NCBI GenBank assembly: GCA_001602645.1
Contig: LUYE01000017.1
Span: forward strand, 1-32,713
Length of the DNA stretch: 32,713 nucleotides
Origin: Methanosarcinales archaeon Methan_01
GTDB taxonomy: Archaea; Halobacteriota; Methanosarcinia; Methanotrichales; Methanotrichaceae
Reading direction: 5' to 3'
Positions 18,413-27,631 of this stretch are shown in pieces (the first letter of the stretch is position 1; every line of letters starts with the position of its first letter). The notes beneath the pieces are model-generated. The model saw only the letters and a program-made list of their open reading frames with translations. It did not search any database and was not told the origin of the DNA. The position numbers and the translations under genes were made by a program.

Positions 18413-19426
18413 ATGATGAAAGAAGGGTGGTTTTCGTTGAGAGAGTTTCCCAGGCCGAGGGTGGTGGTGAGCAGGTGCATCGAGGTCGACCACTGCAGGT
18501 ACAACGGCCAGATCATCAGCAGTGACTTTGTAAAGAGCCTTCAGCCTTACGTCCAGTTCGAACCGATCTGCCCCGAGGTGGAGATCGGCCTCGGCGTCCC
18601 CAGGGATCCGGTGAGGCTCGTCTCTTCCGGCAGAGAGAAAGAGACGAGGCTCATCCAGCCCGCGACGGATAGGGACGTCACGGCGGAGATGAATGCCTTC
18701 GCCGACGCCTTCCTCGACGCCGTGGGCGACGTCGATGGCTTCGTCCTCAAGGCGAGCTCCCCCTCCTGTGGGATCAGAAACACCAAGGTCTACCCCACCG
18801 CCGGAAGGTCGGCGCCCCTCACCAGGAGCGCGAGCGGCCTCTTCGGCGCCGCCGTTCTGGCCAGCCACCCCCACCTCGCCGTCGAGGACGAGGGGAGGCT
18901 CCGAAACCCGAGGATAAGGGAGCACTTCATGACGAGGCTCTTCACCCTGGCGAGCTTCCGGGAGGTGAAGAGGTCGGAGTCGATGGAGGAGCTCGTCCGG
19001 TTCCAGACTGAGAACAAGATGCTCCTCCTCGCCCACCACCAGGCCGAGGCGAGGGCCCTCGGCAGGATCGCCGCCAACCACGACCACCTTCCCTTCGATG
19101 ATCTGGTCGGCGAGTACGAGCCCCACCTGGCGAGGGCTCTATGCCGCGCCCGGAGGTACACCTCCAACATCAACGTCCTGATGCACATCTTCGGCCACTT
19201 CAAAGGTCGGCTATCGCCGGGGGAGAGGGCGATCTTCCTGGAGAACGTCCAGAGATACCGGGACGGCAAAATAACGATCTGCCCCAACACCACCATCCTC
19301 AGGGCCTGGGCGGCACGGTTCGAGGACGAATACCTGGGGAGCCAGACCTTCTTTGAGCCCTACCCCGAGGACCTGGTTGAGGTCGACCCCGCCGTCTCTC
19401 ACCGGGGCCGGGACCTCTGGAGGTGA
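18413..19426 (+). CDS. DUF523-DUF1722 (YbgA-like) fusion protein
   Basis: This 337-residue cytoplasmic protein has two conserved domains. Residues about 10-160 match DUF523, with cysteines in VVVSRCIEVDHCRYNG, the block CPEVEIGLGVPRDP and KASSPSCG. These probably bind a metal or Fe-S centre. Residues about 195-325 match DUF1722/YbgA, with QTENKMLLLAHHQAEARALG, NVLMHIFGHFKG and the terminal PYPEDL. The same two-domain arrangement is widespread in bacteria and archaea. I know of no firmly established reaction, although gene neighbourhoods elsewhere have hinted at DNA repair or sulfur chemistry. Two adjacent ATG codons (18413, 18416) are available, and the transcript is probably leaderless. It is a single gene converging on the tubulin-like operon. 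Confidence 0.85.
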   Translation: MMKEGWFSLREFPRPRVVVSRCIEVDHCRYNGQIISSDFVKSLQPYVQFEPICPEVEIGLGVPRDPVRLVSSGREKETRLIQPATDRDVTAEMNAFADAFLDAVGDVDGFVLKASSPSCGIRNTKVYPTAGRSAPLTRSASGLFGAAVLASHPHLAVEDEGRLRNPRIREHFMTRLFTLASFREVKRSESMEELVRFQTENKMLLLAHHQAEARALGRIAANHDHLPFDDLVGEYEPHLARALCRARRYTSNINVLMHIFGHFKGRLSPGERAIFLENVQRYRDGKITICPNTTILRAWAARFEDEYLGSQTFFEPYPEDLVEVDPAVSHRGRDLWR

Positions 19427-19614: not shown

Positions 19615-19830
19615 CTAGAGACCCAAGGCGTCTTCGGCCTCGTATATCCTCTCAAACTCTTGGCCGTACCGAGGGTAGCTCAGGGGGACCATCGATGGAC
19701 CTCCCATCAACGAGAAGGAGGGGTCTACCTCGATCACCTCGCCTTTCTTGTTCTTCACCAGGAGCCAGAGGCCATGGACGCCACCGGAAAAGCCCATTTC
19801 TTCGCCATGGTCGTTCCCACATCTCACCAA
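19615..19830 (-). CDS. Small hypothetical protein, last gene of tubulin-like operon
   Basis: This 71-residue frame begins 5 bp after the stop of the FtsZ/tubulin-like gene, with TTG (19830) or the adjacent GTG. There is no clear ribosome binding site, so it relies on coupling. The protein reads like a folded soluble domain (GGVHGLWLLVKNKKGEVIEV, then a PSFSLMGGPSMV stretch). Its GGVHGLWLLV resembles GGVKGLWLEA near residue 39 of the tubulin-like protein itself, which could be chance or a shared small motif. I recognise no family. A run of ten G (coding strand) directly follows its TAG, and a plausible helical peptide continues in a shifted frame. A frameshifted longer ancestor is therefore possible. 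Confidence 0.5.
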   Translation of the reverse strand: MVRCGNDHGEEMGFSGGVHGLWLLVKNKKGEVIEVDPSFSLMGGPSMVPLSYPRYGQEFERIYEAEDALGL

Positions 19831-19835
19831 AAGGC

Positions 19836-21371
19836 TCAGAGCCCCCGTTCCGTGAGGATCCTCTTCACCTCTGCCTCCACGAGCTTTCGAAGATCCTCGT
19901 CCCTTATCTCTCCGCCGCCCCGGTGGGCCTCGTGGGGGCGGGGTCCCCGGCTCGACCTCTCAAAGACGTTCCTCTCTTCAAGGAAGAAGGGCTTCTCGCC
20001 AACCTCGATTCGTTTGAGCCCCTCTAAAAAGCGCTCTCGGATCCCATCTTCTCCGCGGAAGTAATCCTCCAGGGCCCTCTTCGTCAGATCCGGCATCCCA
20101 TCTTTGACGAGGTTGCTCTCGGGGTCGTCCATGTACTTGAGGGCCATCCTGATCACCCTGTGGAGACGATACTCGAGGTTACCCTTCACCTCACATCCCC
20201 TCTTCTCACCGTAGGGGTTTCGCAGGAGGATCAGGATCTCATCCCAGCCTTTCTCTCCAAGCTTCCTCCACGGCTCAATCCGATCTGAAGGAAGGCCCGT
20301 CTCCCTCGCCACCGCCTTCCCAATCTCCTCGAGGTTCATGAAACCTCTGGTGAAGACGTAAGCCCTCTCAGCCCTCCGCGGATCGCATCCGAAGAGCTGC
20401 CCCTCAGAGAGGGCCTTTCTGACGAGATCGCCTTCGGGGTCCTTCCGCCTCCGATCTCGGAAGTAGCAGGGGACGAGGATGGGAGGGCGGTCCAGCCCCT
20501 CAATGAACTTCTCCCGCATCGCCAGGCTCGGAGGGTCCTCCCCGGGATAATGGCGGCCGGCTACGAAAGGTATCATCGACTGATGGATGAAGTCGTCGAT
20601 GGCGGAGTAGTCCTGACCGAACCTCTCCACCAAGATCTGGTTGTCCGCGAGGATCACTCCATCCACCCCCACCCCGACCTTTTTGGTCAGCAGATCGTAG
20701 AGGGAGATTGTCGCGCCGAGGTCCCTCTTCGCCTCCTTCGCCCTCTGCTGAGGGTCGGTCCCCTCCTCGGTGAGAACCCCCAAAACGAAGACCGGATATG
20801 CGGGCCGCTCCCCTCGGATGTACCTGGTTATGGGGTTGACAAAGCCGGTCCCTGTCCCTCCGCCGAAGGAGACTATGAAGAGGATACCATCGCACATCTC
20901 CGACCCGCTCATCCCCTTCTCGGCCGCCAGGGTGGTATAACCCCGGATCTTGTCCCAGGCTGCCCTCAGGATCGGGTTCTCCGACTCGTGCTCCGATAGG
21001 GCGGCCCGTTTCACCTCTTCATCGGCCTCAAAGATCTCGAAGACGGCCTTGAGGAACTCAGCCTGCCTCATGAACCCTTGTTTCTTGACATCGTAACCGT
21101 ATTTGTCGACGATCAGCTTCGAGGTCTTGGATTTAGATCCTATGACGTCGTGGGGTATGAAAAAACCTGGATAGCATCCCTTCTCCAGGGAGCCGAAGAA
21201 GCTCTGGTTCTCCGTCTCCTGGACGTCCGCCTCCAGCCAGAGGCCCTTGACGCCTCCGAAGGAGACGTGCTCCCCCAGGGACTTCTTGAGCGGCGCCACG
21301 TCCTGGTTTTTGAGGAACCGCTCCGCCAGATGTCCTCCACACCCACCGATCCCGATTATACACAGCCTCAT
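19836..21371 (-). CDS. Divergent FtsZ/tubulin-family GTPase
   Basis: This 511-residue cytoplasmic protein has the GTP-binding fold of the tubulin superfamily. The N-terminal loop IGIGGCGGHLAERF (residues 6-19) is nucleotide-binding. The defining tubulin signature GGGTGTG is complete at 170-176. A helix-strand block VDGVILADNQILVERFG (236-252) is followed by QDYSAIDDF (253-261), at the position of the T7 catalytic loop. All are in the FtsZ order. The rest of the sequence is unlike FtsZ, CetZ or TubZ: there is a ~90-residue insertion between T1 and T4 and a ~230-residue C-terminal part rich in charged residues. It should hydrolyse GTP on polymerisation and may form filaments. Its ATG overlaps the upstream membrane-protein stop by 4 bp, so it is made together with that protein. 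It is not expected to be the main cell-division FtsZ. Confidence 0.85.
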   Translation of the reverse strand: MRLCIIGIGGCGGHLAERFLKNQDVAPLKKSLGEHVSFGGVKGLWLEADVQETENQSFFGSLEKGCYPGFFIPHDVIGSKSKTSKLIVDKYGYDVKKQGFMRQAEFLKAVFEIFEADEEVKRAALSEHESENPILRAAWDKIRGYTTLAAEKGMSGSEMCDGILFIVSFGGGTGTGFVNPITRYIRGERPAYPVFVLGVLTEEGTDPQQRAKEAKRDLGATISLYDLLTKKVGVGVDGVILADNQILVERFGQDYSAIDDFIHQSMIPFVAGRHYPGEDPPSLAMREKFIEGLDRPPILVPCYFRDRRRKDPEGDLVRKALSEGQLFGCDPRRAERAYVFTRGFMNLEEIGKAVARETGLPSDRIEPWRKLGEKGWDEILILLRNPYGEKRGCEVKGNLEYRLHRVIRMALKYMDDPESNLVKDGMPDLTKRALEDYFRGEDGIRERFLEGLKRIEVGEKPFFLEERNVFERSSRGPRPHEAHRGGGEIRDEDLRKLVEAEVKRILTERGL

Positions 21372-22051
21372 CGGATCCCTCCTAGGGCCTCAGCGTATAC
21401 AGGCCAGAGGAGCGCCACCTCAGAGCCAAAGAGGGCGAGGAAGGCGAGGCCCCTCGCAGCCGGGTCCAACTCGGGAAATATCGTCCCCAGCTGGACGGAT
21501 AGAGCGATGGAGAGGGCCAGGGCTGGCACCGTCAGCATTATCGCGACCTTCGTCTCCCTGGAGAGCTCGTAGTAGCCGTAGAGCTCTTTGGGGATGAAAG
21601 CGGCCGCCAAACCCGTCAGAAGGAGGAAGAAAAGGCCGAAGGCCGCAAACCCCACGGGGCCCGAGGATAGGGTTGGCACCAGGTAGTAGTTGCGGCCAGG
21701 GAATATCTCGGGGGTCAGGAAGTAGAAGTAGGCGAAGGCGGCAAAGAGGAGCATCCACGCCGCCACCGCCGCGGCGTTGAAGTTCGATCCCTGGCGGGTG
21801 AACATCTCCTCTCGAAGGTCCTCGGGGGATACTTCACCGCCATGGGTGGTGGCTGCTACGTTCCGGTAAGTCCTATCCATGTTCAACCTGTGGAGGAGAA
21901 CCCCTCCGGCCAGGAGGGCGATGAATATCCCGACGCCCAAAAGGCCGTTGGAATAGATGCCGGCGAGGAAGCTCGATAACCCCTCGGAGGCCAGCCCCGA
22001 CGATATATCGACGGCCTGGACCGTCGCCACCGTCTCGTTCAGGTCGCTCAT
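21368..22051 (-). CDS. Five-helix membrane protein of tubulin-like operon
   Basis: This 227-residue integral membrane protein has no recognised family. Hydrophobic helices are visible at about 35-54, 93-112, 132-152, 168-190 and 200-220. A soluble N-terminal segment (1-30) precedes them. A charged loop at about 56-90 (HRLNMDRTYRN, EDLREEMFTRQ) is probably cytoplasmic and could contact the tubulin-like GTPase. The start overlaps the stop of the secreted/anchored protein gene by 4 bp, and the stop overlaps the start of the GTPase gene by 4 bp. Strict coupling on both sides argues that it is the membrane hub connecting the two. Confidence 0.8.
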   Translation of the reverse strand: MSDLNETVATVQAVDISSGLASEGLSSFLAGIYSNGLLGVGIFIALLAGGVLLHRLNMDRTYRNVAATTHGGEVSPEDLREEMFTRQGSNFNAAAVAAWMLLFAAFAYFYFLTPEIFPGRNYYLVPTLSSGPVGFAAFGLFFLLLTGLAAAFIPKELYGYYELSRETKVAIMLTVPALALSIALSVQLGTIFPELDPAARGLAFLALFGSEVALLWPVYAEALGGIR

Positions 22052-23490
22052 CGATACAGCCTCCTCTCGATCACGATCCCACCTGCAAGGGCTGCCAGCA
22101 GAACGAAGAGGAGGTTTCCGATGGTCACCGCCGAGTATATCGGATACCTGACGATCTTCGGATGGATCTTCCCATCGGAGGTTCCGCCCATCATCTCTTC
22201 AGAGTTCTGGTCGGTAGCCGAGTACTTGAAGTAGTAGGTGAAGCTTTCGTCGGCGTCGGATACGTCGAAGGGCCTGAGATCGAAGAGGACGACCTGCGCA
22301 TCCTCAGAGGCGTTGATAACCCTCGTATCCTGATACCGGTTGGGGTGGGACGGGGTGCTGGTGTAGAGGTCTATCCGAAGGTTATCCACCTCCAGGTTCT
22401 TCACCTTGAGGCTGAACCGATAGTTCTGCCACCAGTACCGGTTCTCGTCCGCGGCCTCCACATTGGAGTCCGAGACGAAGATCTTGGGGCTGGGGAGGAG
22501 GCTCGGCCCGGGATATATCTCCGTCGCGTTGCCATCGAGGCCGTCGCCGTAGGTGAACCGGTAAGAGAAGTTCCTCCCAGCGTCCCCCTCGCCAAAGAGG
22601 CCGTACTCGCTGGCAGAGAAGGTGACGTTCGTCCCCGACTTCACCTCCTGGGTGAGGTTCGCCCGCTCCCTCCCCTGGTCGTCAAGGACTTGGAGGGTGA
22701 CGTTGACGAGGTCCCCATCGGCGTCGACGAACCGGGACGCATACCGGATCGGATCGTTATACCTGGCCCTTGCTGGCTCAACCCTGATGCTCTCCCCCAC
22801 GACCTCCGGGGGGCTGTTGACGAGCTCGAGCTCCAGGATGCTGTAATAATCGTCTTTCTGATAGGGCCTGGTGTACATGGTGTCGGTGAGGTAGGTGCTG
22901 TGCATGTCGTTGAACCAAATCCGGAAGGTGGCGTTCCCCACCACCCTCGAATCGACGAACGGAGTCAGCCCGGACCAGTCCCGGATGGTGGAGTTGGACT
23001 TCTGGGAGTACTCGTTCGCGAGGATCACCCTCTGAGATCCGACCCTGGTGAAGTTCTCATCCCCCGGACCCTTCGCCTCCAGGTAAAGGTAGACGTCTGA
23101 CCTGACCTCGATGGGGTTGTCATTCTTCACATAGGCATAGATGTCCAGATTGTCATTTCTTGTGATCTTTGTCTTCTCTGAAGGGTACCATATCAGGACC
23201 GTCGGAGCGGAGTAATTCTTCGGCGGGACGAAGGGTATATGGAGGAGCTTTTTGAGGTACTCGTACTCCTGGGGCTCGTCCTGCTTCCATTTCTCCAGGT
23301 TGCCGATGAGGTCGTCCAGCTCCAGCTTGACGATCTTCTTTCCCCCGCTCGTGGTGGTGGACGCCCCGCCGCTGCTCCCTCCGCTGGATGAGGGGGTGGA
23401 CTTCGGCGGCGAGGGGCTCACCCCCTGGGCCTCGACCACCAGGGGGAGGAGAAGGAGGGTCACGATGAGGAATGCTGCCAATCTCTTCAT
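22048..23490 (-). CDS. Secreted, C-terminally membrane-anchored repeat protein
   Basis: This 480-residue extracytoplasmic protein has a signal peptide (about 1-21), a Ser/Thr/Gly/Pro-rich low-complexity segment (28-49), several all-beta Ig-like stretches, and one C-terminal membrane helix (about 452-474) followed by RRLYR. The protein would be held on the outer face of the membrane. Blocks such as FSYRFTYGDG, then YPGPS, then YRFSLKVKNLEVDNLRIDLY resemble the repeat unit of the larger secreted protein encoded just upstream, so the two probably share a domain family. Several N-x-S/T sites suggest N-glycosylation, as is common on archaeal surface proteins. The gene begins 1 bp after the upstream stop. 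Confidence 0.8.
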   Translation of the reverse strand: MKRLAAFLIVTLLLLPLVVEAQGVSPSPPKSTPSSSGGSSGGASTTTSGGKKIVKLELDDLIGNLEKWKQDEPQEYEYLKKLLHIPFVPPKNYSAPTVLIWYPSEKTKITRNDNLDIYAYVKNDNPIEVRSDVYLYLEAKGPGDENFTRVGSQRVILANEYSQKSNSTIRDWSGLTPFVDSRVVGNATFRIWFNDMHSTYLTDTMYTRPYQKDDYYSILELELVNSPPEVVGESIRVEPARARYNDPIRYASRFVDADGDLVNVTLQVLDDQGRERANLTQEVKSGTNVTFSASEYGLFGEGDAGRNFSYRFTYGDGLDGNATEIYPGPSLLPSPKIFVSDSNVEAADENRYWWQNYRFSLKVKNLEVDNLRIDLYTSTPSHPNRYQDTRVINASEDAQVVLFDLRPFDVSDADESFTYYFKYSATDQNSEEMMGGTSDGKIHPKIVRYPIYSAVTIGNLLFVLLAALAGGIVIERRLYR

Positions 23491-23491
23491 A

Positions 23492-25486
23492 TCAGCTCAC
23501 GACCGGCGAGAAGTCTACCTCCAGATAATACGGGTAACCCTTCCACTCGAGCCTCTGCCACTCGGAGGATTCTGAGGCGTAGACCTGGGGGTCCCCTGCC
23601 AGGGTCCAGACTGTTCGGTCCATGGTGGTGACGAGGTCGACGGATACGCTGGGAAGGGAGGAGCGGACCTCCACGCCGTAGGTGTAGACGTAATCGCCCC
23701 GGGCGTTGTCGTAGGAGACGTTCCATGTCTTGTTTCTGAAGTTTACCTCGATCTCAGGACCGACGAAACCCTCCTGGCCGTCCAGGAATCTCGTCCCGGA
23801 GAGGAACCTGAACCTCGACTCGCCGAGGAACGGCTCGGCGAAGGGGAGCTCGTCGAGGGTGAAGTTGAGAGACCCCTGGGTGAAGTTGTAGCTCTGAGGT
23901 TTTCCCGCCTCGATCCAGGCATTTCGGACCGGATCGTATAACTCCAGCTTCACGACCACCGGATCGGACCCCTCCACGGTATCTATCTCAACCGCGTAGA
24001 CGTAAGGCACCCGGACGAGCCTCTCTCGCGGCTGGTGGAAGCTCGAATCCCAGGACCCGATCGACCCGTTGGATGGAGAGACCCGTCCGACGATCGACTC
24101 TTTGAAGATGACGGGGCCTGTATAAACGGTGGGGGGCGAAGCAGCCCTTATAAACCGGTAGGTTACGTTGCCGGCTACGTCGCCGTCGAAGGCGACGTCC
24201 TTCCAGGTCAACCGGGGGTCGCCGTTGTAGGTGGCTATCCCCTGGGACCTCCAGATCCCTGAGCCAGGCTCGGTCGTCTGGAGCTCTATGTCGCAGACGG
24301 GGAGGGCGGTGCTGACGTCCACCGAATAGGTGTACCGGGCTACGGCGCTCCCCCTCTCAGGAGATACGGTGGCGTTATCATACTTGATCAGGACGATATC
24401 GGGGCCGAGGTTCACCTTCCCCTCCTCCTCCCGGCTGGTCCCCAGGGGGCTCTCTGACCCAGGGTAGTAGAAGCTGAAGAAGTAGGAGGAGCTCCCCTCC
24501 GAGCCTATCGCCTCGCTCGGCGTGACGCCGGTCCAGACTAAACTCTGCCAGCTGGTAGCGTTTGCATACCTCTTCTTCTCGACGAGCTTGAAGAGGTTCT
24601 GGTCTATATCCCAGATGTTGAGGCCGACGTCCAAGCTCTTGGAGCCCCTGAAATCTAGGGCATAGGTGAAAGGCGACCTCGAGAAGCCGTCTTTTGGGGT
24701 GACGGTGGCGTTCGCGTATTCGTATTCCACCGGCCAGAAGGGGCCCTCAAAGGCCTCAGTCTGCTTTCTTCCGACGAACCTGTACCGGGCCTTGATGAAG
24801 TCGAAGTCGAGGGCGATGTCGTCCCACATCAGGGTCTGCCATTCGCCGATGTTGGTGTAGTTCCTGCTCCCGCAGTCCTTCCAGGGGCCGATCGCCTCGG
24901 GAGCGACCTGGAGGGATACGCTATCGACGGCGCTGGAGAATACGTCGATCCGATAGCTGTAGAGTTCAGCGTCCGTCCCCATCTTCGGGGACACCTCGGC
25001 GTTCTTGTAGACGGTGATCATCTTGATGAGGGTGGGCTCGCCATCGTAGCTCTCCAGGCTCACCGGATCGCCGACGAGGGGCGTAATCAAAACCCTATAC
25101 CAGCCCTTCTCCCAGATGCTGGTGTCGTTATCGTCGGTGGCCCATCTTCCGAAGGCTCCTCGGATCATCTCCGGGGACCTAAAGTTGACGTCGAAGGTGA
25201 CGTCCTGAGCTGAACGAGCCGTGAGACTGACGTCTGAAGTGTATTTTTTTGAGGCGGAATAGTCGGTGTAATCGGGTCCGACCTCCAGATCCACCACGTA
25301 GCGCATGGGGCTGTTCATCGCATTCGTCAGGTGGACTTTGTAGACGATGGGCTGGTTGACGTTGTACGGCATATTCGTGGTGCCGCTCTGCTGGAAGCTC
25401 ATCGACGCTTCCGTCCGGCCGAGGGCCGGTGTAAGAACTAAAGTGATGGCTACAAAAACGACGATAGCGAATCTAGGAGATATCAA
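23492..25486 (-). CDS. Large secreted protein with about five beta repeats
   Basis: This 664-residue protein has a signal peptide (about 1-27), an N-terminal domain (30-150) resembling an archaeal surface beta-sandwich, then about five diverged repeats of ~100 residues. They begin near 159, 257, 369, 464 and 585. Each opens with a V-(S/T)-P-x-x-G turn (EVSPKMG, TVTPKDG, TVSPERG, RVSPSNG; the fifth is degenerate) followed by Y-x-Y/F-x-(V/L)-(D/E)-(V/I/F). Most have a W/L-x-W block (WQTLMW, WQSLVW, LTW, WQRLEW) and a YRF...GP end. The last repeat stops early. There is no membrane anchor; it may bind the anchored protein encoded next. The start is a TTG without a ribosome binding site, and a CATAAATC box about 26 bp upstream suggests a leaderless mRNA for the whole operon. 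Function is unknown. Confidence 0.8.
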   Translation of the reverse strand: MISPRFAIVVFVAITLVLTPALGRTEASMSFQQSGTTNMPYNVNQPIVYKVHLTNAMNSPMRYVVDLEVGPDYTDYSASKKYTSDVSLTARSAQDVTFDVNFRSPEMIRGAFGRWATDDNDTSIWEKGWYRVLITPLVGDPVSLESYDGEPTLIKMITVYKNAEVSPKMGTDAELYSYRIDVFSSAVDSVSLQVAPEAIGPWKDCGSRNYTNIGEWQTLMWDDIALDFDFIKARYRFVGRKQTEAFEGPFWPVEYEYANATVTPKDGFSRSPFTYALDFRGSKSLDVGLNIWDIDQNLFKLVEKKRYANATSWQSLVWTGVTPSEAIGSEGSSSYFFSFYYPGSESPLGTSREEEGKVNLGPDIVLIKYDNATVSPERGSAVARYTYSVDVSTALPVCDIELQTTEPGSGIWRSQGIATYNGDPRLTWKDVAFDGDVAGNVTYRFIRAASPPTVYTGPVIFKESIVGRVSPSNGSIGSWDSSFHQPRERLVRVPYVYAVEIDTVEGSDPVVVKLELYDPVRNAWIEAGKPQSYNFTQGSLNFTLDELPFAEPFLGESRFRFLSGTRFLDGQEGFVGPEIEVNFRNKTWNVSYDNARGDYVYTYGVEVRSSLPSVSVDLVTTMDRTVWTLAGDPQVYASESSEWQRLEWKGYPYYLEVDFSPVVS

Positions 25487-25673: not shown

Positions 25674-26813
25674 TCAGGCGTCTATCGCCCTGCTCGCCGC
25701 CTCTATCCCGGCCCCGAGGCTGGATATCACGCCCTCCTTCTTCAGGACCAGCTCCAGGGTCGAAATGGTCCTGAGGACGTCGGCCTCGGTGCAGGCCCCC
25801 ATGGTCCCGATCCTGAAGATCTTCCCCTTGAGCCCTTCCTGGCCGCCGGAGACGACGACGCCGCGCTTTCGCATCCCTCCTCGAAGCTGGCTGTCGTTGA
25901 TGCCATTTGGCATCTTCATGGCGGTGACGGTGTTGGAGTAGGTGGTGTGCTCGTTCACCTGGGGGAAGAGCTCGATCCCGAGGGAAGATGCTGCAGCTCT
26001 AACCCCTCCGGCGAGGCCAGCCATCCGCGCCCGCCTCTCGGGGAAGCCCTCCTCGGAGGCGATCGTCAGCGCCTCCTGGAGGGCGAAGAAGAGGGAGACG
26101 GCCGGGGTATAGGGGGTCTGGTTCTTCTTGGCCTTTTTCAGGTGGGCCTTGAGGTCGGTGTAGTAGCCGCCCTTCCCCTCCTCCAAGAGATCCATCGCCC
26201 TCTCGCTTACGGCCACCATGGCGAGCCCTGGCGGGACGGCGAGACACTTCTGAGATCCGGTGATGGCGATGTCGACCCCCCATTCGTCGGTGAGAAACTC
26301 GTTACCCCCGACGGAGGAGATCCCGTCGACGATGAATACGGCATCGTACTTCCTCGCGAGCTTCCCGACCTCCTTCGCTGGGTTGACGATCCCGACGGAG
26401 GTCTCGTTGTGGACCATGGTGATCGCCTTCGCGCCTTCCTCCAAGGCCGCCTTTACCCGTTCCAGGTCGAAGGGGGTTCCCCAGGGGAAGTCGAGGGGGA
26501 CTGAGGTCCCGTAACGGTCGCCGAGCTCCGTGAACCTCTCGCCGAACTTTCCGTTGGTGATGGTGACGACCTTCTCCCCTTTGCCGATGATCCCGCCGAC
26601 GGCCGCCTCCATGCCGGCGGTTCCGCTGCCGCTCAGGACCACGACTTCGTTCTTCGTATCGAAGAGGTCCCTCAGCCTCAACCTGCAGTCCTCGTAGATC
26701 TTCTCGAAGTCGGCGCTTCGGTGGCTGATCATCGGCTTCGACATGGCCCGGAGCACCCTCTGGGGAACCTTTACAGGCCCCGGGATCATCAGCAGCGTGT
26801 CCTCGATATCCAA
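25674..26813 (-). CDS. Class V aminotransferase (alanine/serine-glyoxylate type)
   Basis: This 379-residue cytoplasmic PLP enzyme is of the serine-pyruvate/alanine-glyoxylate branch. The N-terminal IPGPVKVPQRVLRAMSKPM with the later HRS is the branch hallmark. SGTAGMEAAVGG (about 64-75) binds the PLP phosphate. The Asp of VDGISSVGG (about 162-170) contacts the PLP ring. The Schiff-base Lys is in TGSQKCLAVPPGLA near 187. In methanogens homologues supply serine, phosphoserine or glyoxylate-linked amino transfer; the exact substrates are not readable. The start is TTG, with weak GAGGGA 7 nt before it. A TATA box (ATTTATATAG, reverse strand 26848-26857) overlaps the end of the RNase HII gene, so it probably has its own promoter although it is only 34 bp downstream of that gene. 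Confidence 0.88.
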   Translation of the reverse strand: MDIEDTLLMIPGPVKVPQRVLRAMSKPMISHRSADFEKIYEDCRLRLRDLFDTKNEVVVLSGSGTAGMEAAVGGIIGKGEKVVTITNGKFGERFTELGDRYGTSVPLDFPWGTPFDLERVKAALEEGAKAITMVHNETSVGIVNPAKEVGKLARKYDAVFIVDGISSVGGNEFLTDEWGVDIAITGSQKCLAVPPGLAMVAVSERAMDLLEEGKGGYYTDLKAHLKKAKKNQTPYTPAVSLFFALQEALTIASEEGFPERRARMAGLAGGVRAAASSLGIELFPQVNEHTTYSNTVTAMKMPNGINDSQLRGGMRKRGVVVSGGQEGLKGKIFRIGTMGACTEADVLRTISTLELVLKKEGVISSLGAGIEAASRAIDA

Positions 26814-26847: not shown

Positions 26848-27480
26848 CTATATAAATCTAGCTTTTATCCGTTCTGCGGTCTTCCAGCTCTGCCTCGCGA
26901 CGGGAGGGAGGTCGCCGTGCTCCGTCACCCAGGATTCGAGGAACCGGACGGTGGCGGGATCTGAGGGGTAGCCGCTCCCGATCTCTCGTCCGACCGCGAC
27001 CTCGATCTCCCGTACCGACCGGTCCCTCTTCACCTTGGCCAGGATCGAGGCGGCGGCGACGACCGGGTGGTTTCTATCGGCCCGGTGCTCGGCGACGACC
27101 TCCATCTCCGTCCCGCTGACCTCCTTCACCCTCCGGGCGAAGCGCTCAGCGTTCACGTCGGCGGCGTCGAGGATCGCTCTATCCGCCGAGAGGTTCTCCA
27201 GAACCTTAGAGAAACTCCGAACCATGACATCGTTCATGGTCATGATCTTCCGGAGCTCGTCGATCACCTCGGGCCTCACCTCCAGGACGTATTTGTCGAG
27301 AGCGATCTTCTCGATCCTGCCGGCGAGGACCTCCCTCCTCGCTGGTGAGAGGAGCTTTGAGTCCTTCACCCCCAGGGCCGCGAGGTCAAAGAGCCGATCC
27401 TCGTCGATGACCACGCCGGCGACGAACATCGAGCCGATCACCGGACCCTTCCCCGCCTCGTCGGCGCCCAAAAGTCGCAT
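26848..27480 (-). CDS. rnhB: Ribonuclease HII
   Basis: This 210-residue endonuclease cleaves the RNA strand of RNA-DNA hybrids, including single ribonucleotides left in DNA. The catalytic motifs are intact: GADEAGKGPVIG (about 5-16), KDSKLLSP, the Asp in AILDAADVNAE, and the block ADRNHPVVAAASILAKVKRD. Length and the DEAGKG form fit archaeal enzymes. The frame extends 35 codons further upstream, but that part is not protein-like. The ATG at 27480 begins exactly at the family N-terminus and is preceded by GGGGGAAGG. The aminotransferase gene follows 34 bp later. Confidence 0.93.
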   Translation of the reverse strand: MRLLGADEAGKGPVIGSMFVAGVVIDEDRLFDLAALGVKDSKLLSPARREVLAGRIEKIALDKYVLEVRPEVIDELRKIMTMNDVMVRSFSKVLENLSADRAILDAADVNAERFARRVKEVSGTEMEVVAEHRADRNHPVVAAASILAKVKRDRSVREIEVAVGREIGSGYPSDPATVRFLESWVTEHGDLPPVARQSWKTAERIKARFI

Positions 27481-27631
27481 CCTTCCCCCGATGGAGGCTT
27501 GTGGTATTTGAATCGATCGAAAAATGGTCGGCGGGCGGTAGGCGATACAATCCAACCTTTCGCCCTCAATCCCGACCTTGCTCATACGGCTCTAGCGGTC
27601 AGACGACCGAGAGTCGTTCGGATAAAATATC

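Follow-up and report, generated by a model that had tools for sequence, protein, structure and literature searches.

CetZ proteins (e.g., Haloferax CetZ2, PDB 4b45, and Methanosaeta CetZ, 3zid) are by profile and fold the nearest described relatives of a divergent tubulin-superfamily GTPase of 511 amino acids (aa) encoded on a stretch of 32,713 nucleotides of Methanothrix DNA (contig LUYE01000017.1, analyzed at its full length; hereafter the window). They share with this protein the T1 loop, the GGTG core of T4, the DNQ motif of T6, and the C-terminal domain, but the window protein is longer, carries extra insertions and a tail, lacks the acidic residues of the CetZ T7 motif TDLGD, and is encoded in an operon of membrane and surface proteins; the same genome has a CetZ of its own (L043, 367 aa). 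FtsZ is similar in its nucleotide loops and in the succession of core, linker, and short C-terminal helix, but the window GTPase lacks the T7 motif NLDFAD and is not part of a division cluster, and its genome has a standard FtsZ as well (L042). Together with the genes of a five-helix membrane protein and two secreted proteins, the GTPase gene forms a four-gene module that is kept in fixed order, is present or absent as a block, and is near universal in Methanotrichaceae. We propose, with a probability of roughly 0.5 for the full mechanism set out below, that these genes constitute a single co-inherited, Methanotrichaceae-specific module for an envelope-spanning scaffold.

Makarova and Koonin (2010, PMC2875224) proposed that FtsZl1 remodels membranes as part of a system that includes vWA proteins. 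The resemblance to the module is that a divergent tubulin-like GTPase is encoded with secreted and membrane proteins and that the genomes have FtsZ as well. However, FtsZl1 has a coiled coil and no recognizable T6-H7, whereas the module GTPase has a clear T6-H7 and, in its predicted model, a tubulin-type C-terminal half; moreover, the vWA, kinase, or P-loop GTPase domains of the FtsZl1 partners occur in none of the three module partners. Against Pfam Tubulin_2, which we take to cover the FtsZl1 group, the module GTPase scores 14.9 bits at a cut-off of 27. Unclassified tubulin-like groups of archaea such as Halo.Tub also lie, as the module GTPase does, outside the FtsZ/CetZ core; in the superfamily phylogeny (PMC9871819), Halo.Tub is reported to occur in quasi-tandem copies and coiled-coil neighbors to be common in such groups. 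The main text of this phylogeny does not name Methanothrix, and such a Methanothrix protein is discussed neither in its main-text passages nor in those of the CetZ survey (PMC9856176). The four-gene set is apparently undescribed, and a search of the main text of PMC10470525 found no expression data for the locus of Methanothrix thermoacetophila. A PADLOC search for defense systems gave no match.

A preliminary description of the locus, made from the sequence alone, had recognized an FtsZ/tubulin-family GTPase with a GGGTGTG loop, and this assignment holds. The 511-aa protein scores 35 bits against Pfam Tubulin (PF00091; cut-off 33 bits), and the same family is matched by all 31 GTPase sequences (the window protein and 30 relatives), which have conserved T1, T4, and T6 motifs with an invariant T4 loop GGGTG[ST]G. 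Searched against solved structures, the profile of these 31 sequences ranks CetZ first and also finds FtsZ and tubulins; hhalign aligns residues 160-359 with CetZ at 99% probability (E 2e-18), a match spanning T4, T6, H7, and the C-terminal domain. Structure comparison, which had been put forward as the check on the fold, points the same way: the AlphaFold model (pLDDT 83, pTM 0.84) finds CetZ2 as its top Foldseek match (E 1.4e-12, TM 0.69 by target length) and aligns with CetZ2 and tubulins over both domains and more than 400 columns (E ~1e-12). Judged by these profiles and the predicted model, the 511-aa protein is a true member of the tubulin superfamily. Since the source genome has its own FtsZ, its own CetZ, and a further relative (L044, G000:C34:135641-136108, a 356-codon frame with 59 bits to PF00091), it represents an additional, separate family beside FtsZ and CetZ, with lengths of ~509-687 aa, large family-specific insertions, and a tail.

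The window comes from the M. harundinacea group of Methanothrix (closest named records: Methanothrix harundinacea, Methanothrix sp., and Methanocrinis, all Methanotrichaceae), and its source genome is 2.6 Mb in size and 99% complete. The module runs on the minus strand from 25486 to 19836 with internal spacings of +1, -4, and -4 bp. The features of the locus are:

23492..25486, minus strand: secreted repeat protein, 664 aa; lone hydrophobic stretch at the N-terminus (signal peptide), ~5 repeats
22048..23490, minus strand: secreted Ig/PKD/cadherin-like protein, 480 aa; signal peptide, beta-sandwich ectodomain, one C-terminal membrane helix
21368..22051, minus strand: five-helix membrane protein, 227 aa; predicted N-out/C-in, no family match
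19836..21371, minus strand: divergent tubulin-superfamily GTPase, 511 aa; T1, T4 GGGTGTG, and T6 DNQ present, T7 Asp pair absent
19615..19830, minus strand: decayed remnant of a one-helix protein of ~190 aa, whose intact form occurs in related species (L031, L032, L046-L051)
25674..26813, minus strand: class-V aminotransferase, flank outside the module; conserved neighbor, kept in strain GP6, which lacks the module
26848..27585, minus strand: archaeal RNase HII, flank outside the module

The 56 loci that we examined comprise 49 distinct ones, at 41 of which all four genes stand in this order; 7 are cut by contig ends and 1 is split. Because order, strand, and tight spacing are kept in 41 distinct loci, the arrangement exceeds what chance would give, and of the five co-directional, tightly spaced genes originally described it is thus four that belong together, while the fifth is a relic (see below). 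At the split locus (L052/L095/L096), which lies in a single-contig metagenome assembly (G303), the repeat gene is found ~0.5 Mb from the other three and the 480-aa gene lacks its front, be it by rearrangement, decay, or misassembly.

Co-occurrence of the partner proteins with the GTPase, raised in the preliminary description as a check, proved strict rather than scattered in samples of 50 Methanotrichaceae genomes and 393 genomes of the phylum. A GTPase match is found in 46 of the 50 family genomes, but that of G296 is only at the level of FtsZ/CetZ, which leaves 45 real ones; the 480-aa protein is found in 43, each with the GTPase, and in two genomes with the GTPase only (G311 and G315) the GTPase gene sits at a contig end. 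Across the phylum, the 480-aa protein occurs in 15 genomes (14 Methanotrichaceae and one bin of another class) and the five-helix protein in exactly these 15, and a collection-wide scan of 84,980 species for the GTPase returned only Methanotrichaceae-type records and this same bin. The bin is filed under Methanocellaceae UBA148, and its module copy (L040/L084) is in composition nearer to Methanothrix than to the rest of the bin, with little sequence available, so that misbinning and gene transfer cannot be told apart. By eye, the neighbors of this copy are a GH25-like protein and a large surface protein of the vWA type with multiple repeats. Second, divergent copies of the module within a genome are whole cassettes (L051/L058, L050/L077, and L053/L066).

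The topologies first assigned to the three partners (664 aa and secreted, 480 aa and secreted with a C-terminal helix, 227 aa with five helices) are borne out, and a membrane-spanning arrangement with two surface proteins is supported by helix prediction and by an enrichment of glycosylation sequons. Five helices are predicted in 21 of 23 relatives of the 227-aa protein, and its positive charges fall mostly in loops 1 and 3, from which we infer the N-out/C-in orientation. Helix 1 is followed by a charged loop of ~40 residues, predicted to be cytoplasmic, and the motif QGSNFN is conserved ahead of helix 2; Pfam gave scattered sub-threshold matches and no described family. The membrane helix of the 480-aa protein (residues 456-474) is followed by ERRLYR, again predicted to be cytoplasmic, and its model is a string of beta-sandwich domains with weak matches to bacterial Ig, cadherin-like, and PKD families; a structure search with this model returned only generic Ig-like multidomain proteins at low TM-scores. 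The repeat protein comprises ~5 beta-sandwich-like repeats of ~90-105 aa each and matches no described family and no recognized adhesin family in the libraries searched. Its relatives span 537-1460 aa, short and medium forms having 4-5 detectable repeats, and second module copies, where complete, can have a far longer repeat protein (1235 aa, L058). Free-standing proteins with the same repeat type are found near modules (L051 11435-13300, L058 11985-13256, and L084 1007-2236). Profile comparison did not support a common domain family for the repeat and 480-aa proteins, though one repeat of the former is weakly detected in a few relatives of the latter. N-X-S/T sequons number 22 per 1000 residues in the 480-aa protein and 20 in the repeat protein, 2.4-2.5 times the shuffled expectation, whereas the GTPase and the five-helix protein have 2.9 per 1000, no more than expected. 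Since the excess is confined to the two proteins predicted to lie outside, it provides independent support for that location.

The preliminary description had read the T7-like loop as complete and the protein as the basis of a GTP-driven filament; the alignment does not bear out the first claim and leaves the second without support. In a joint alignment of the 31 GTPase sequences with the FtsZ and CetZ of the same genome, the second T7 Asp aligns in 31/31 with a hydrophobic residue (Met, Ile, Val, Leu, or Phe), and the position of the first is acidic in only ~6/31 (FtsZ LINLD-FADVRT; CetZ SVTD-LGDFKT; module GTPases, e.g., DPPS-LAMREK and IPPS-QAIAHN), at moderate certainty of the alignment in this loop and with model blocks there of pLDDT 66-75. 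The lack of the T7 catalytic acidic residues bears on activity and not on membership in the fold. GTP-driven turnover is doubtful because a hydrophobic residue replaces the second catalytic Asp in every sequence. An invariant Arg and Pro just ahead of the loop (R273 and P276), together with a commonly conserved Glu, could, speculatively, serve another role. At the other end of the protein, a poorly conserved, low-confidence linker (~473-488) leads in the model to an 18-residue helix (491-508), and relatives have a comparable helix-like tail behind linkers of varying length. FtsZ binds its membrane anchor through such a C-terminal tail, and by analogy that of the module GTPase may be a membrane-docking element.

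In the mechanism that we propose, the GTPase would bind GTP and form longitudinal assemblies in the cytoplasm that are likely stable, slow in turnover, or otherwise regulated, since the T7 Asp pair is missing. Its tail, with a variable linker and a conserved short helix, would dock on the five-helix protein at its charged loop on the cytoplasmic side, and the five-helix protein would pair with the 480-aa protein in the membrane; the ectodomain of the latter would hold the repeat protein between the membrane and the S-layer or sheath, the displayed beta-repeats being glycosylated. The complex would thus be a scaffold for positioning: by holding beta-repeat proteins in a patch or ring at selected places on the filamentous cell, it would organize the contacts of the envelope (at the cell end, the plug, or the attachment of the sheath) and would not build the sheath itself. 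We have fair confidence that the four proteins form one complex and low confidence in assembly of the GTPase into stable polymers and in a positional role for the surface repeat proteins. That a new tubulin family devoid of T7-driven hydrolysis acts as a stable template wired through membrane proteins to extracellular beta-repeats is a tentative idea, more doubtful than the scaffold as such; the module may be Methanothrix's own inside-to-outside scaffold.

The absence of the module as a block speaks for this proposal. The complete genome G305, which is Methanothrix soehngenii GP6 (its plasmid is 100% identical), has none of the GTPase, 480-aa, five-helix, and repeat proteins; RNase HII and aminotransferase genes are still adjacent there, followed by unrelated genes. 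GP6, formerly M. concilii, is a classic sheathed strain with concentric-ring plugs (PMC6242892), and that it grows in sheathed filaments although it lacks the module weighs against the proposal. Pairwise distances of the GTPase and the five-helix protein correlate (r 0.92, but rho only 0.54), which is in its favor, yet the housekeeping genes on the flanks give high correlations as well (0.71-0.86), so that this signal of co-evolution is not specific. Finally, the T7 divergence weakens the case for a dynamic filament and, judged from sequence, could mean that there is no filament at all.

GP6 bears most directly on a sheath or spacer-plug assembly machine that would set new hoops of the sheath, or new plugs, where the cell divides. 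The lineage forms sheathed filaments and the module is near universal in it, the literature describes the proteins of the plugs and the partners in sheath assembly as not known (PMC11576556, PMC6242892), and the Ig-like repeats of the module resemble those of sheath adhesins (PMC11576556). Nevertheless, GP6 has both sheath and plugs, so that the module is not required for either, at least in this strain, and the sheathed lineages outside Methanotrichaceae that were covered by the collection-wide scan and the phylum samples have no relatives of it. An essential part of the module in building sheath or plugs is therefore disfavored; of the roles considered earlier, sheath or septum formation cannot be obligatory, and we regard this machine as improbable.

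Dispensability in GP6 would suit an adhesion or display platform, in which clustering of the membrane pair by the tubulin-like protein would display long repeat proteins for contact with partners or between cells. The range of 537-1460 aa is typical of display proteins, the sequon enrichment is strong, and CetZ genes adjoin some archaeal pilus operons in the survey passages that treat them (PMC9856176), but the module has no pilin, ATPase, or secretion gene, and its repeat protein falls into no recognized adhesin family; we consider such a platform possible, if on balance unlikely. Much the same standing goes to a non-cytoskeletal switch, a monomeric or dimeric GTP-sensing subunit of a membrane receptor complex whose filament dynamics were lost with T7. 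It would fit the missing second Asp and the large family-specific insertions, but less so the retention of both tubulin domains, the tail architecture, and conserved T1, T4, and T6. Second copies in some genomes, absence from GP6, and the copy in the UBA148 bin could also indicate a surface cassette, mobile or selfish, that has no set role in the cell, which is very unlikely given the near-universal occurrence of the module, an RNase HII-aminotransferase flank that is stable in several genera, and the lack of GTPase relatives in 2.9 million viral contigs, a search in which viral or mobile origin found no support.

Methanothrix are the main acetate-consuming methanogens, live as sheathed filaments, and are the source of much of the biological methane formed from acetate. 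A lineage-wide tubulin-like module with membrane and surface partners provides named genes to test in them, with GP6 as a natural knock-out, and a tubulin relative that lacks the T7 acids would probe what the superfamily is capable of without GTP turnover.

The 71-residue protein initially counted as a fifth component is, barring an assembly error, a decayed relic and probably not a working component here. At the same site, L031, L032, and others encode a 186-198-aa protein with a single N-terminal helix; compared to the 193-aa protein of L031, the window keeps the middle part and has lost the front, and its frame stops at an in-frame TAG where L031 reads GAG. The ~190-aa protein matches no Pfam family and shows a conserved HLWLLV...EVDP pattern (L031:10841-11422 and L038:12975-14393), which in the L038 copy follows a longer secreted region. 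Because its relatives adjoin modules in two genera only, in the second of them as a longer 472-aa form (L038/L057), it is an accessory at most. Directly downstream of the module, positions 18413-19426 of the plus strand encode a 2-thiouracil desulfurase-like domain fused to DUF1722.

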